From NCBI GenBank assembly GCA_021325035.1, contig JAJPHW010000231.1, positions 1 to 35,547 of the forward strand: a DNA stretch of 35,547 nucleotides. Direction: 5' to 3'. This DNA comes from Terriglobia bacterium. Its GTDB lineage: Bacteria; Acidobacteriota; Terriglobia; Terriglobales; Acidobacteriaceae. Under the pieces are notes generated by a model. The model was given only the letters and a program-made list of their open reading frames with translations, searched no databases and was not told the origin of the DNA. This document shows, piece after piece, positions 409 to 29,112 of the stretch; the first letter of the stretch is position 1; each line of letters opens with the position of its first letter. The translations under genes were made by a program, and so were the position numbers.

Positions 409-3400
409 ATGGGAATTTGGGCTCGCCTTTTTATCACGCTAATATTGGGATGTGCTGGATTGGCGCAAACGGCCGACGCTGGCTCGAATCAAACAACTCC
501 ATCGACCCCATCTCAAACAACTTCGGGTCAGTCAGCACCAGCGCAATCACCCGCAGGAACTATCCACGGAATCGTCAAATCCGGGAATATGCCTTTGCCC
601 GGAGTTACAGTCACGGCGACGAACACGCTCACTGGTCAGAAAGTGACAACCTGGACGGATGTAGATGGGTCTTACTCATTGCAAGTGCCGTCCAACGGGC
701 GATATGTCTTGCGGACACAGATGGCAGCTTTCGCGCCTTCCACGCAGGAAGTGCTGATCAATGCAACGAACCAGGATGCAACGGCGAATCTTGAACCGGT
801 ACTCCAATCGCGCGCGCAGGATGCGACGCAGGCGCAACAGAAACAAGCCGCCGCGATTGGACGGGGATTCCAAACATTGTCCGTGTTGCAAAGCGCCTCT
901 TCCACAGAGCTAGCCGCGAGCGGCGGTAACGATATTGTCCCGTCCGGGATTTCGATTCCTGGATTATCTGCCAACGGAGCCACGGAATCGGTTTCGGTGT
1001 CTGGCAATAACTCAAGTCCTTTTTCGACAATGAGTAGTGATGAAATGCGTGCGCGTTTTAATGAAATGCGCCCATCCGGCGGCGGCCTTGGTGGATTCGG
1101 GGGAGGATTTGGTGGTGGAGGTTTCGGGCCGGGTGGAGGCGGTCCGCCACGCGGCATGTTCGGCCGCGGATTTAACTTTAACCAGCCGCACGGGAGCATT
1201 TATTACAGCGTGGGGGATTCCGCGCTGAATGCCTCACCCTTCTCTCTCACCGGTCAGCCCGTGGTTAAACCTGGATATTTGCAACAACGTTTTGGTGTGA
1301 CGATTGGTGGGCCACTAAAAATCCCCGGTATTTATAAGGGCAGCGACAAAACTTTCTTTTTCATGAATTACAACGGTGCGCGCGGGGAAAATCCTTTTGA
1401 CCAATTCTCCACCGTGCCGACACTTTTGGAGCGTGCAGGAGATTTTTCTCAGACCACCTATACGTCTGGTGCGAACGCAGGGCAACCAGTTCAGATATTC
1501 GATCCAAATACAGGAACGCAATTTCCCAATAACACGATTACGTCTATCAGCCCACAGGCGCAAGCCTTACTTGCGTACATTCCTGTACCGAATCTGCCCG
1601 GCACAACGCAAAATTTTCATCGTGTGGTTGCTACGACTAATGACAGTGATGATTTCAACATTCGCTTGATTCGCTCGCTGGGTGGGACGAGCGCCGGACC
1701 GCGTGCCAACGGTCCGCGGAACAGTCTGATTTTCGGCTTTCACTACCACGGATCGAGCAATGACATCACGAACCCTTTTCCCAGCGTGGGTGGCAACACT
1801 TCGGTGCGCGATTTCGATGTCCCCATTAGCTATGTGCGTACGTTTGGGAAAATTACTAACAGTCTTCGCTTTGACTTCAATCGCAGCCGCACGAAAACGC
1901 AAAATCTCTATGCTTTTTCGCAGGATGTTGCCGCGAATGTTGGGATTGGCGGAGTTTCGACGAATCCTTTTGACTGGGGGTTGCCGACGCTTTCCTTTAC
2001 AAATTTTGCGGCATTGCAGGACACAAATCCCAGCCTCGTCCGCGACCAGACTTTTTCATATTCCGATAATGTGGTGTGGACGCACGGGAAGCATACATGG
2101 CGATGGGGAGGAGATTTTCGGCGCATTCAGTTGAATACTGAAGGAGATAGTAATTCGCGGGGATCGTTTATTTTCACCGGATTGAATACTTCGCAACTTG
2201 ATAGCTCCGGCAAAGCAATCGCCGGCACAGGATATGATTTTGCCGACTTTTTGCTGGGTTTTGCTCAACAAACATCGGTCCAATATGGAGCAAACAACTA
2301 TCATTTCCGCGGGAATTCATGGGATTTGTACCTGCAAGATGAATGGAAACTGCGCGGGAACCTGACACTGAATCTTGGCGTGCGTTACGAGTATGTTTCG
2401 CCATTTACAGAAATCGATAACCGCATTGCGAATCTCGATCTATCTCCCGGCGTATTAAATGATTCAAGCAACGCGCAGGTTGACGTTGTTTTGCCGGGGC
2501 AGGCGGGCACGTTCCAGGGAAAATATCCAACCACTTTGGTGCGGCCAGATCGTGATAATTTTGCCCCCCGCGTTGGCATTGCCTGGAAGCCTCTTTCGAA
2601 GACTGTGGTTCGGGCTGGGTATGGCATTAACTACAATACGGGCGCTTACCAAACCATCGCGCAGGATCTGGCTTTTCAACCGCCTTTCGCGCTTGCACAG
2701 ACGAATGTACAGGCGACCGCGGGCCCTTTAACGCTCGCGAACGGCTTTCCGACTCCGATTCCAGGAACGATCACGAATAGCTATGCAGTGGATCCGAATT
2801 ACCGGCTGGGCTATGTGCAGATTCGAAATTTAGATATTCAACAAGAAATTCGCCCGACTTTAATCATGAATGTGGACTACACCGGAACCAAAGGATCAAG
2901 ACTCGATATTCTCTCCGATCCTAACCGAAGTCTCGCGGGAATTCGCATTGCGAATGTGCAGGCATTCAACTATGAAGAATCTGCTGGGAGCTCGAGCGCT
3001 AATGCCGGATCAGTTCGCATTCGCAAGCGACTACAAAATGGAGTTTCTGTTGGAGGTACCTACACTTTTTCGAAATCCATTGACGACGCCTCCACGATTG
3101 GGGGAGGAACAACTTCGAGCGGGAATTCTGCTGGTTTAGGTGCTGGAGGCACCGGTCCTCCCGGTGGAGGGAGTGGAGGAGCCAGCAATACAGGATCGTC
3201 GCAACTGGCTCAGAATCCCTTCAATCTAGCGGGCGAACGGGGACTATCCAGTTTCAATCAGACGCAACGTTTTACGGGGGATTTTCTCTGGGAGTTGCCA
3301 TTTGGCCATGATCATAAATGGCTCAATAACGCGACGGCGTGGCGCGCGATTTTTGGAGATTGGCAATGGAGCGGAGACTGGACCGTTGCTTCTGGGCTGC

Positions 3401-23959: not shown

Positions 23960-24793
23960 CTACCGCAACCAATCTTCCAGTTCAATCCGCTGATCGGTTT
24001 TTTCGTCGCGATATTTCACGATCACCGGCGTATATAAAGACAGGTTCCACTCCGCAGCTTTTCCTCTGCTCACTGCTCGTGATCCCGGCACAACTACAGC
24101 GCCCTCCGGCACTTCGAGCGGTTTCTCATCGGAAGCACGATAAATCTCTCCACGAACAATGTCATGAATTGGAGTTGAGCGCGTCAGCATGGTCCCAGCG
24201 CCCAGAACCGCCCGCGAGCGGACCAAAGTGCCCTCATAAACACCGCAATTTCCGCCCACTAAAACATCGTCTTCAATAATCACCGGAGAAGCGTTGATTG
24301 GCTCCAATACGCCGCCTATCTGCGCAGCGGCGCTCAGATGAACGCGCTTGCCTATCTGTGCACATGAACCTACAAGCGCATGGGAATCCACCATCGTCCC
24401 TTCATCCACATAGGCGCCGACATTGATGAACATCGGTGGCATACAAATCACGGAAGGTGCTATGTAAGATCCCATCCGAACCGAAGATCCCCCGGGGACT
24501 ATGCGAATGCGATCTTCAGGCTTAAAACGCCGGGCAGGGAAAGTATCTTTATCCACGAACGAAAGGCACGATCCGTCGCTCATCTGCGTGAGTTGGCCGA
24601 GCCGGAAACCAAGCAGAATGCCTTGTTTGACCCAAACGTTGACGATCCACCTGCCATTGGTTTTTTCGGCTGCGCGAATTTCTCCCGCGGTCAATGCTTC
24701 GCGAAATTTTAGAAAAATCTCCCGCGCATCGGAATTCTGCCCAATTTCGCCCAAAGATGCGAGGCGTTCAATTTCTGCTTGCAAAGTCGGCAT
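23960..24793 (-). CDS. dapD: 2,3,4,5-tetrahydropyridine-2,6-dicarboxylate N-succinyltransferase
   Basis: Cytoplasmic left-handed beta-helix acyltransferase of 277 residues, making N-succinyl-2-amino-6-ketopimelate from tetrahydrodipicolinate and succinyl-CoA in the lysine/diaminopimelate route. The hexapeptide-repeat core runs from about residue 105 to 215 ([59 protein letters not shown]). The N-terminal helical domain contains the usual [20 protein letters not shown] segment. Its presence means the succinylase branch is used. It is the last gene of the asd-lysC-dapB-dapA-dapD operon, 4 bases after dapA. The later dapC, dapE and dapF genes are not in the window. Confidence 0.95.
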
Positions 24794-24797
24794 GGAA

Positions 24798-25925
24798 TTA
24801 TCCGACGCACTTACATTCGCTGCGGATTAACACACCGGCAAGCTGCTGCGAAGCCTCGCGTGCTTCCGTTACAGACGTATATGGCCCATGCCAACGCGAT
24901 TGATTAGGATCATGGCCCGGCGGTCTGCCTTTGCCGTGATTGCACTGTCCACAAGAAGAACGGTGCAACTGCGATTTGTGTGGCCCGCCGACCCAGCTTT
25001 CATAAATGTAAAAGTCGGTAGCTTGCGCAGGTACGGCTGTTTTAGGGAGAAGCCCGGCATCTGATGCAATTTTCTGCAACTTCGAGCGCGTGTCACGCCG
25101 CATCGGAAGCATCGGCAAACGATAAACTTCCTCGATTTTCCCCATCATCGCCAACACAGCTTTCACCGGCATCGGATTCGACTCGATGAAATTTGCCTGC
25201 ATAAGGGGAAGATATTTTCGGTGAATATTGCGCGCTTTTGACCAATCGTTATTCAGTACCGCCCGTGTCATCTCGGCCATCTCGCGAGGGATTTCATTGG
25301 AAGCTACGGAAATCACACCCACGCCGCCGAGCGCCATTACGGGAAGCGTAACGGCGTCATCGCCCGAGAACACCAGAAAACTTTCCGGAACTATATTGCA
25401 GACATCAGCAATTTGCGAAAGATTCCCGCTGGCTTCCTTTACGCCCGCAATGTTTGGCACTTCGGCGAGTCGTGCGAGTGTCGCAGGTTCGATGTTTGCT
25501 GCGGTTCGTCCCGGCACATTGTAGAGAATGATCGGCTTATCAATTGCCTCAGCAATCGCTCGAAAATGACGATACTGGCCTTCTTGTGTCGGTTTGTTGT
25601 AATAAGGCGAAGCGGTAAGAATCGCGGTCACGCCCGGTCGCGCAGCGACTTCCTTGGCCTTTTCGACTGCTTCTTTGGTCGAATTCGACGTGGCTCCGGC
25701 TACGATAGGTACGCGCCCGGCGGCCACCTCAATGTTGACGTCAATCACGCGCAGCCATTCGTCATGAGTGAGCGTGGGCGTCTCAGCGGTTGTGCCGCAG
25801 GCCACGATGAAATCAATGCCAGATTCGATTTGCCAGTTGATTAGACTCCGAAGAGCAGGCTCGTCAATCGAGCCGTCTTGCTTAAACGGGGTAACTAGAG
25901 CTGTACCGCATCCGCGAAGTTCCAT
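24798..25925 (-). CDS. dapA: 4-hydroxy-tetrahydrodipicolinate synthase with C-terminal Cys/His-rich extension
   Basis: Class I aldolase that condenses pyruvate with aspartate semialdehyde. Residues 1-295 form a complete DapA TIM barrel: [10 protein letters not shown] at the start, [11 protein letters not shown] (43-53), Tyr135 in [10 protein letters not shown], and the Schiff-base lysine Lys163 in GVKEASGN. The protein does not end there. After a short linker ([11 protein letters not shown]), an in-frame extension of about 70 residues (305-375, bases about 24801-25013) contains [22 protein letters not shown] and a terminal ECKC. The four Cys and five His could bind metal. From memory it resembles a small Cys/His module found in stand-alone hypothetical proteins. 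No frameshift is needed. Operon gaps: 54 bases after dapB, 4 before dapD. Confidence 0.93.
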
Positions 25926-25979: not shown

Positions 25980-26660
25980 TTAAAGCTCCCGCCAGATATT
26001 CTTAAAGTCGAAGAAGCCTTTTTTCCCAGGAAGCCACTCGGCGGCGCGGACCGCGCCTTCGGCAAAGCCACGGCGAGACTTGGAATCATGGCAAAGATAG
26101 ATCGTATCGTGTGGAGAGTCGAATACTAACTCGTGCATGCCGACCACCTCGCCTTCGCGGAACGACGTAATTTCCAGTTCTGTTCCGGAAGCTTCACGGA
26201 CAATGCTTCTGAGCGCCATCGCCGTGCCGGAAGGCGCGTCCTTCTTGTGCACGTGATGGCGCTCAAATATCTGTCCCGAATAGTGATGTTTGAGGGCTGA
26301 AGCGGCGTTTCGAATCACGTCATAGAAAAGATTTACACCGATGGAATAATTCGCTCCGTGCAGTAGCGCTGTATCGCTTTTTTCTACCAGTGATCGAACT
26401 CGCGTCATCTCGGCCAGCCAGCCGGTGGTTCCGACCACAATGGGCTTATTGGCGCGCAGGCAAGCCTCGATATTCCCGATGACCGCGTGCGGAGATGTGA
26501 AATCAATAATGGCATCAATATTTGCAAGGTTTTCCTTCGTCAGTGCTGCGCCTTGAGCATTCTCCACCGCACCCGCCACCTGCACTTCATGGTTGCGCGC
26601 GCGCGCGACTTCGGCGACGAGAGATCCAGTTTTGCCCCGGCCTAAAATAAGTAATTTCAT
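25980..26660 (-). CDS. dapB: 4-hydroxy-tetrahydrodipicolinate reductase, short form
   Basis: NAD(P)H-dependent reductase of 226 residues, converting hydroxy-tetrahydrodipicolinate to tetrahydrodipicolinate; E. coli DapB is about 270 residues, so this is a compact version. The active-site block ERHHVHKKDAPSGTA (133-147) is intact and defines the family. VVGTTGW (75-81) forms the usual cofactor-side loop. The Rossmann loop reads LGRGKTGS (6-13) instead of the usual GxxGxMG; such a variant may change cofactor preference. It lies 3 bases after lysC and upstream of dapA in the lysine operon. Confidence 0.94.
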   Translation of the reverse strand: MKLLILGRGKTGSLVAEVARARNHEVQVAGAVENAQGAALTKENLANIDAIIDFTSPHAVIGNIEACLRANKPIVVGTTGWLAEMTRVRSLVEKSDTALLHGANYSIGVNLFYDVIRNAASALKHHYSGQIFERHHVHKKDAPSGTAMALRSIVREASGTELEITSFREGEVVGMHELVFDSPHDTIYLCHDSKSRRGFAEGAVRAAEWLPGKKGFFDFKNIWREL

Positions 26661-26663
26661 GTT

Positions 26664-28037
26664 TTATGCGAAGACCGCAGAATCCAGCTCCGAAAAGAAT
26701 GCTTTGTGCAGTCGCTGTACCACGCCAGGCACGGCATCTTCTTCAATGACAAAAGTCAGATTAATTTCCGATGCCCCCTGTGAAATCATGCGTATCTTAA
26801 CATCAGATAACTCGCCGAAAACCCGCGCGGCAATTCCTGGGGTTTCCCTTAAGTTTTCTCCAACAAGGCAGACAATCGCTTTCCGCCCTTCATATTTCAC
26901 ATCGGCCAATTTCGCCAAATCAGCCGCCAGGGCAGGGATTGCTTCATTCGAGTCCACCGTAAGAGAAACGCTCACTTCGGAAGTGGAAACTACATCTACC
27001 GGCACTTGATGCCGGTCGAAAGCTTCAAAAATCGCGCGCAAAAAACCATGTGCTAGCAACATGCGGGGTGCGGCGACGTCCACAATCGTAATGCGCTTTT
27101 TCACCGCGATGGCTTTGAAGAAATTCTTACAATGAGGAGCCCGCGCGGCAATGCGTGTTCCTTCGCATGCCGCATTGCGCGAATTTAATACATAGACGGG
27201 GATATTCTTCTGAATCGCTGGCAACACCGTCGCCGGATGTAGAACCTTGGCTCCAAAATACGCCAGCTCGGCAGCTTCATCAAAGCTAATAACTTTAATT
27301 CGCCGTGCTTCTGGTATCAGGTTGGGGTCCGTCGTCATCATGCCATCAACGTCGGTCCAGATTTCGATGCGTTCAGCATTGAGGCCCGCGCCCACAATGG
27401 CAGCCGAGTAATCCGATCCGCCGCGTCCGATGGTTGTGGTGACGCCAGTTTTCGTCGCGCCGATGAAGCCGCCCATCACCGGAACACTCGATTTGTCCAA
27501 TAAAGGCTGAAGGTTCTTTGTAAGACGCTCGTTGGTTTCGGTAAAAAGAGGAGCTGCGCGCATGTGCGCACTATCGGTAACGATGCAGTCACGCGAGTCC
27601 ACGAGTGTCGACGGAACGCCATGCGCGGACAATGCTGCCGTCACAATCTTGCTCGACAACATCTCTCCGTACGCCGCTACGTGGTCGGTTGTGCGAGGCG
27701 TGAGCTCGCCCACGGCTGCTATGCCGCGCAAAAGCTCATCGAGGGCTTCAAAATCTATACCGAGGTCGCCATGAAATTGGGTGAAGAGGGCAGTTCCCAG
27801 CAATTCTCCCGCGGTGTTGTAATGGCGTTCTCGCAGTGTGCGCGAAAGCTTCAACGCAGTCTTGCGATCGCCCTCGCCAGCCGCTTTTGCCATTGCCAGC
27901 AGTTGGTCGGTAGCTTTGGACATCGCGCTCACAACCACGACTGGCTTTTCAGGTTGGCGCTGTTTGACGATGTCAACCAAGCGGAGAATCGCGGCAGTGT
28001 CCCCCACCGACGTCCCGCCAAATTTCATGACAATCAT
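26664..28037 (-). CDS. lysC: Aspartate kinase (lysine-type, with ACT domains)
   Basis: Aspartokinase of 457 residues, the committing step from aspartate to lysine, threonine and methionine. MKFGGTSVG (4-12) is the nucleotide/aspartate site. Further kinase segments are TTIGRGGSDYSAAIVGAGL and EIWTDVDGMMTTDPN. The C-terminal third has two ACT-like units (KRITIVDVAAPRML, and later RKAIVCLVGENLRETPG with MISQGASEINLTFVIEED) for allosteric control, probably by lysine. There is no homoserine dehydrogenase fusion. The length and motif order match class III lysine-sensitive LysC. The gene lies 22 bases after asd and 3 before dapB, in one operon. Confidence 0.95.
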   Translation of the reverse strand: MIVMKFGGTSVGDTAAILRLVDIVKQRQPEKPVVVVSAMSKATDQLLAMAKAAGEGDRKTALKLSRTLRERHYNTAGELLGTALFTQFHGDLGIDFEALDELLRGIAAVGELTPRTTDHVAAYGEMLSSKIVTAALSAHGVPSTLVDSRDCIVTDSAHMRAAPLFTETNERLTKNLQPLLDKSSVPVMGGFIGATKTGVTTTIGRGGSDYSAAIVGAGLNAERIEIWTDVDGMMTTDPNLIPEARRIKVISFDEAAELAYFGAKVLHPATVLPAIQKNIPVYVLNSRNAACEGTRIAARAPHCKNFFKAIAVKKRITIVDVAAPRMLLAHGFLRAIFEAFDRHQVPVDVVSTSEVSVSLTVDSNEAIPALAADLAKLADVKYEGRKAIVCLVGENLRETPGIAARVFGELSDVKIRMISQGASEINLTFVIEEDAVPGVVQRLHKAFFSELDSAVFA

Positions 28038-28059: not shown

Positions 28060-29112
28060 TCAATTCAGATACCCTTTGACTTTCAGCAATTCCGCATTCA
28101 GCAGCGCCGCTCCGGCCGCTCCACGAATCGTGTTATGCGAGAGTGCGGTGAATTTCCAATCGAGCACGCTGCATGGCCGCAAACGGCCGACAGTCGTGGT
28201 CATGCCATTGCCAAATTCGACGTCGAAACGCGGCTGTGGTCGATCGTTCGCACTTACGTAGCGAATCGCTTGAGCAGGGGCGCTGGGCAGCTTCAGTTCC
28301 TGCGGAACTCCCGCAAATTGCTGCCATGCGGCAATTATTTCTTCGGCGCTGGCTTTCTTCTTTAACTTGATTGAAACAGATTCCGTGTGCCCATCTTCCA
28401 CGGCCACCCGGTTACATTGCGCGCTCATCGCAAACCCGGCTGGTTTGATGCTCGAACCATTCACCGAACCCAGAAGTTTGAGTGTTTCTTCCTCCATTTT
28501 TTCTTCTTCCTTGGGAATGTAGGGGATTACATTTCCGAGGATATCAAGCGACGCCACTCCGGGATAACCAGCTCCACTCACGGCTTGCATGGTGACGGCC
28601 ATTACAGTTTCGATGCCAAAAGTCGTCTGCAACGGTTTCAAGGCGATGACCAGCCCAATTGCCGAGCAATTTGGGTTTGTCACAACATAGCCACCGGACT
28701 TTGCCCGCCAGCTCTGCGTTTCAATCAGTTTGATGTGATCGGCGTTGACCTCAGGAATCACCAGCGGCACGTCGGATTTCATGCGCAACGCGCTGGAGTT
28801 CGTGATCACAGCGTGACCCGCTTCGGCAAATCTCGGTTCCATCTCGGCTGCAATGCCGGCATCAAGAGCGGCAAAAATCACCTTCGGTGCTCCATGAGGT
28901 TGTGCCGGTGAGACTGTCATCTTTGCGATGCGATCAGGAATCGCTGTTTTCAGGCGCCAGCGCGTGGCTTCACCATAAGTTTTGCCTTCGGATCGGTCAG
29001 AAGCGGCCAACCACGCCACCTCAAACCAAGGATGATTCTCCAGCAACTGCACAAAACGTTGTCCAACGACACCGGTTGCGCCAAGAATGCCAATGGGGAT
29101 TTTCGTTTGCAT
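28060..29112 (-). CDS. asd: Aspartate-semialdehyde dehydrogenase
   Basis: NADP-dependent dehydrogenase of 350 residues that makes aspartate semialdehyde from aspartyl phosphate, the product of the adjacent lysC. The N-terminal Rossmann loop GILGATGVVGQRF (8-20) and the nucleophile Cys149 in TNPNCSAIGL are intact. The catalytic His region follows in the C-terminal half (VAVEDGHTES). The segment QAVSGAGYPGV and the overall size resemble the archaeal/fungal branch of Asd more than the E. coli one. It is the first gene of the lysine block, with only 67 bases between it and the AI-2E gene upstream. No lysine riboswitch could fit there. Confidence 0.95.
   Translation of the reverse strand: MQTKIPIGILGATGVVGQRFVQLLENHPWFEVAWLAASDRSEGKTYGEATRWRLKTAIPDRIAKMTVSPAQPHGAPKVIFAALDAGIAAEMEPRFAEAGHAVITNSSALRMKSDVPLVIPEVNADHIKLIETQSWRAKSGGYVVTNPNCSAIGLVIALKPLQTTFGIETVMAVTMQAVSGAGYPGVASLDILGNVIPYIPKEEEKMEEETLKLLGSVNGSSIKPAGFAMSAQCNRVAVEDGHTESVSIKLKKKASAEEIIAAWQQFAGVPQELKLPSAPAQAIRYVSANDRPQPRFDVEFGNGMTTTVGRLRPCSVLDWKFTALSHNTIRGAAGAALLNAELLKVKGYLN

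Follow-up and report, generated by a model that had tools for sequence, protein, structure and literature searches.

The dapA gene and its product

The window, a stretch of 35,547 nucleotides from a Terriglobia bacterium contig (JAJPHW010000231.1), carries a lysine-pathway gene cluster in the order asd-lysC-dapB-dapA-dapD, located on the minus strand throughout. The neighbors of dapA were named from the sequences of their open reading frames and from gene order rather than by family searches. They are asd, coding for aspartate-semialdehyde dehydrogenase (28060..29112), lysC, coding for aspartate kinase (26664..28037), dapB (25980..26660, named from sequence and gene order) and dapD (23960..24793), which is separated from the stop codon of dapA by 4 bp. 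The dapA open reading frame itself translates without interruption from position 25925 to a stop at 24798 and encodes a protein of 375 amino acids.

The first 292 residues (25050..25925) form a barrel of 4-hydroxy-tetrahydrodipicolinate synthase, DapA. The Pfam DHDPS domain spans residues 3–288 (E 4e-89) and the TIGR00674 dapA model residues 8–288, with a score of 345.2 bits against a cut-off of 206.15. Matches listed from the PDB, which are solved members of the DapA family, all end at or before residue 293 and none reaches the tail. Likeness to E. coli DapA, TIGR00674 and PF00701 covers the whole barrel, including catalytic and lysine-site positions. The standard architecture of DapA is a bare barrel. 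The window protein differs in having about 83 extra residues, 71 of which make up a Cys/His module (residues 305–375; 24801..25013); the barrel and the module are separated by an Ala/Pro-rich variable linker (residues 293–304; 25014..25049), distinguished by its low identity compared to both flanks. Four Cys (325, 328, 371 and 373) and five His (316, 321, 330, 338 and 346) are present in residues 305–375, and an in-frame Cys/His-rich module after a complete DapA barrel, as described in an earlier note on this DNA, is indeed what the frame encodes.

The catalytic residues T44, T45, Y107, Y133, R138 and K161 (E. coli numbering) are all present in the window protein. In a set of 51 distinct fusions (see below), T44 is replaced with Ser in a single protein and the other five positions are invariant. 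Lysine is contacted in DapA by positions 53, 80, 84 and 106 (PMC11201819), and positions 53, 80 and 84 matter for the response of the enzyme to lysine (PMC8821502). In the fusions N80 and Y106 are invariant, H53 is found in 49 of 51 proteins, and position 84 is either Glu or Asp. H53 is nearly fixed in fused DapA and variable in tail-less DapA, while the residue corresponding to E. coli DapA H56 is Trp in each of the 51 fused proteins and in 27 of the 28 tail-less ones. Judged by these residues, the barrel appears to have the full catalytic set of an ordinary DapA and is probably responsive to lysine. Since the lysine-site residues are kept, the extension sits on a normal DapA with no visible replacement of the known control, and the idea of the tail as a substitute for lysine control was rejected.

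Distribution of the fusion and constraint on the module

A search of 298 Terriglobales genomes with the module alone revealed strong matches in about 60. When the whole protein was used, 56 of the 298 genomes matched it from end to end, up to residue 374 or 375. Together with two genomes where the linker is long (G095 and G193) and one where the copy is located at a contig edge (G210), the fused form is present in about 59 genomes of the order. A second, independent collection yielded 19 loci, all of them fused, some of which belong to species already included in the 298-genome set. Thus, the fusion is conserved in related Terriglobia, a point that the earlier note had left to be checked. A profile search of a whole-phylum sample gave no match in any genome beyond the window's own family; when a broader profile was run against the class, stand-alone forms were detected in another family.

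In 28 tail-less relatives, with barrels 61–79% identical to that of the window protein, the frame ends at residue 293–303. The earlier note had considered that related genomes might have a stop codon after the barrel and a separate short gene. A stop after the barrel is indeed common among relatives, but in these 28 the sequence read 3′ of the tail-less dapA (about 300 nt of the 400 nt retrieved) contains no module sequence. Stand-alone module genes exist (see below) and no module was seen in the stretch read downstream of tail-less dapA; the origin of the tail by read-through into the dapA-dapD intergenic region was therefore rejected. A close dapD is found downstream of most fused dapA genes. 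An association of the tail with dapD was also rejected, for a dapD homologue was found in 27 of 28 genomes checked for it, fused and unfused alike, so that there is no pathway difference between the two groups.

Averaged over pairs of the 51 distinct fusions, identity reaches 83% for the barrel and 75% for the module, against 47% for residues 291–304. This conservation sets the Cys/His module apart from a chance sequence. Positions without variation in the module include E309, W311, G314, P315, K317, H321, R322, C325 and G331 in the N-terminal part, followed by W345, H346, G347, P348, R356, L366, I367, R368, S369, C371 and C373; the invariant core pattern is H-x3-C ... C-x-C. The conserved basic residues are K317, R322, R334, R344 (or K), R356 and R368. 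The module is under purifying selection: differences at codon positions 1, 2 and 3 are 0.18, 0.12 and 0.51, i.e. they fall mainly at third positions, and the median dN/dS is about 0.09 for unsaturated pairs. In two lineages, L050 (from G193) and L116 (from G095), the linker exceeds 100 residues while the module is intact, which argues against tight coupling between the barrel and the module. These long linkers are rich in Ala, Pro and Glu.

The earlier note had also allowed for a missing stop codon. Although DapA elsewhere in the order is as a rule tail-less, an artefact in which a lost stop or a frameshift joined dapA to non-coding sequence has next to no probability, given that about 59 genomes and the 19 loci of the other collection have the same fusion at an identical position, and that the module is constrained at the amino-acid level. 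We conclude that the fusion is real and inherited rather than a sequencing error, and belongs to one branch of soil Acidobacteriota.

Homologues and predicted fold of the module

The earlier note mentioned a resemblance of the tail to small stand-alone proteins, and such proteins were found. One of them, from another Terriglobia family (G681), has 73 residues and is encoded by a stand-alone gene adjoining a murA-like gene; it aligns with the window module over 70 residues at 47% identity and without gaps, with His at the position of C371 and with C373 kept. A second short stand-alone gene, for about 72 residues, is present in G115, and module homologues were also detected in G110 and G146. In G022 a related module forms the N-terminus of a 290-residue protein with a putative membrane segment (L171:6557-7429, plus strand). 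The G022 gene is located downstream of type IV pilin/prepilin-like genes, and the same genome encodes a DapA without the tail. Finally, unannotated disrupted copies of the module are carried by Bradyrhizobium and Mesorhizobium plasmids (L062, about 2995-3130, and L131, about 2490-2710). One has an in-frame stop and the other goes out of frame after the W-H-G-P motif; both are probably decayed. The stand-alone Cys/His proteins share with the fused module the pattern F/Y-x-x-Y/H-E-x-W ... H-x3-C-x2-C ... W-x-G-P, but differ in being unfused and in their final pair, which is H-x-C in G681 and C-x2-C in G115 and in the Mesorhizobium copy. They belong to no named family.

No significant match to the module was found in Pfam, NCBIfam, PHROGs or PDB. 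HMM and Foldseek searches with the module likewise gave nothing significant, the fold comparison covering both PDB and viral folds. DUF4170 (PF13773) was considered and rejected, with a score of 12.5 bits against a gathering score of 25 and only 24 residues matched. A resemblance to the metal-binding domain of Ada (PF02805) can be seen by eye: a ligand-x3-Cys element after a β hairpin, an F/Y-x-S/T-x-x-E-A helix and a closing Cys pair. The ligand sets differ, however, being C-x3-C ... C-x2-C in Ada and H-x3-C-x2-C ... C-x-C in the module, and the first ligand position is the methyl-accepting Cys in Ada and His in the module. This candidate was rejected as well: there was no Pfam match at E up to 10, Foldseek gave nothing, and hhalign comparison of the module with Ada domains aligned 10 columns with probabilities of 1.4% and 1.3%. 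By these searches, the module represents an undescribed family absent from Pfam and NCBIfam. No description of a DapA with such an architecture was found in the open literature, as judged by titles and abstracts.

The structure predicted for the isolated module has a pLDDT of 88.8 and a pTM of 0.77. The alignment behind this model is shallow (20 close sequences), and the prediction is therefore of moderate weight. The predicted elements, in module numbering, are β strands 2–6, 13–17 and 39–42, a helix 48–56 and a β strand 63–66. H321, C325 and C328 (module positions 17, 21 and 24) are located at the end of or just past the second strand, and C371 and C373 (positions 67 and 69) just past the last one. 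In the model of the full-length protein pLDDT of the tail is below 55 and mostly below 50. The module probably folds separately from the barrel.

Candidate metal site, possible roles and origin

The conserved residues suggest that the module is probably a metal-binding domain. The candidate zinc ligand set consists of four residues, H321 (24963..24965), C325 (24951..24953), C371 (24813..24815) and C373 (24807..24809), invariant in 51 of 51 fusions; H321 and C325 are also retained in the aligned stand-alone relatives. C328 (24942..24944) is present in 50 of 51 fusions and, judging by its replacement with Tyr in L050, is dispensable, so that an accessory role is assigned to it here. Replacement of Cys with His is typical of zinc ligands. 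A metal site with four ligands is what the invariance of the four residues points to, together with the absence of C328 from one lineage and the presence of His instead of C371 in the G681 homologue. In the stand-alone relatives L051 and L053 the second Cys of the final pair is absent, and the putative site is thus not universal in the family. The metal site suggested in the earlier note is plausible, on the strength of the invariant H-x3-C/C-x-C core and the swap at position 371.

The reading that we favor, while giving it slightly less than an even chance, is that of an autonomous metal-binding docking domain, metal site included, tethered to a normal DapA. H321, C325, C371 and C373 would hold one Zn ion, with C328 as an accessory residue, and the ion would staple the predicted β-β-β-α-β mini-fold. 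A tetramer is established for the DapA family; in the fusion it would display four such domains on Ala/Pro tethers. The conserved surface comprising R322, G331, W345-H-G-P348, R356 and L366-I-R-S369 may dock a partner molecule, which would be brought in this way to the lysine/DAP enzyme, the module acting as a tethered binding unit outside catalysis. Tethered binding domains are usually marked by just this combination, a strongly conserved module on a linker that varies freely, and growth of the linker beyond 100 residues with the module intact is what is expected of such a unit. On these grounds docking to a partner is favored over a switch, nucleic-acid binding or stabilization; a conserved module surface need not mean partner binding.

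Among the other explanations, control of the enzyme by the tail has the most to recommend it. DapA is a branch-point enzyme, and the Cys residues of the module are paired close in sequence; the metal occupancy of the tail, or oxidation of its thiols, could change the activity of the enzyme and so supplement its control by lysine. Six barrel positions differ between fused and unfused proteins, which speaks for such a sensor. Four of these (276, 277, 281 and 284) are close to the junction and differ systematically, but this may reflect shared ancestry, because there were only one or two gains of the tail. The linkers of more than 100 residues in two lineages, the loss of C328 in one lineage, the intact lysine-site residues and the occurrence of the module apart from DapA all argue against a sensor, which we consider unlikely. 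The redox switch or new allosteric control put forward in the earlier note found no support in this analysis; the lysine-site residues are retained, and the long linkers speak against tight coupling to the barrel.

The conserved basic residues listed above, a small and probably zinc-type fold and the separability of the module from DapA are also consistent with binding of nucleic acid, either its own mRNA or other RNA or DNA, which would make DapA a moonlighting regulator. The searches revealed no similarity to known nucleic-acid-binding families, however, and basic residues could serve other ligands, which makes this explanation improbable. A purely structural add-on that stabilizes DapA or its tetramer is, in our estimate, a trace less probable still: the tail directly follows the last barrel helix, whose residues differ between fused and unfused proteins, yet the linker is variable and sometimes very long, and close relatives with 61–79% barrel identity live without the tail.

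Beyond the docking reading, a wider and more tentative proposal can be made, which we regard as possible but rather doubtful. The product of DapA is a precursor of lysine and, through DAP, of peptidoglycan. The module may represent a new family of small docking domains for zinc or another metal, occurring alone or fused to different proteins, that was recruited onto DapA in one branch of Acidobacteriota and there links the synthesis of lysine and peptidoglycan precursors with a metal signal or with some other process of the cell. The novelty lies in the new architecture of a well-known enzyme, the added domain being unclassified. A DapA that is usually the sole copy found in its lineage and that bears an unclassified conserved domain is a clean case for testing how new connections are acquired by a central enzyme, and the fusion points to a small domain family outside Pfam and NCBIfam that is open to characterization through it.

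The history of the fusion was addressed with a barrel tree of 79 sequences from which tail columns were excluded. In this tree 49 fused proteins form one group (97/88), while the long-linker fusions L050 and L116 sit apart, among tail-less proteins. A tree that joins all fused proteins in one clade is not rejected by the AU test (p 0.40); the tail may thus have been gained once and later lost in some lineages, or gained twice. The simplest origin would be fusion of a small stand-alone gene to dapA. A phage or viral source was rejected, as no relative of the module was found in phages or viral contigs. At the cut-off used, G227 and G210 have two DapA matches each, the other matching genomes have one and ten genomes have none. 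Two full-length fused dapA copies are present in G227 (C182:1067-2191 and C212:5134-6258), which may reflect a mixed assembly or a duplication.
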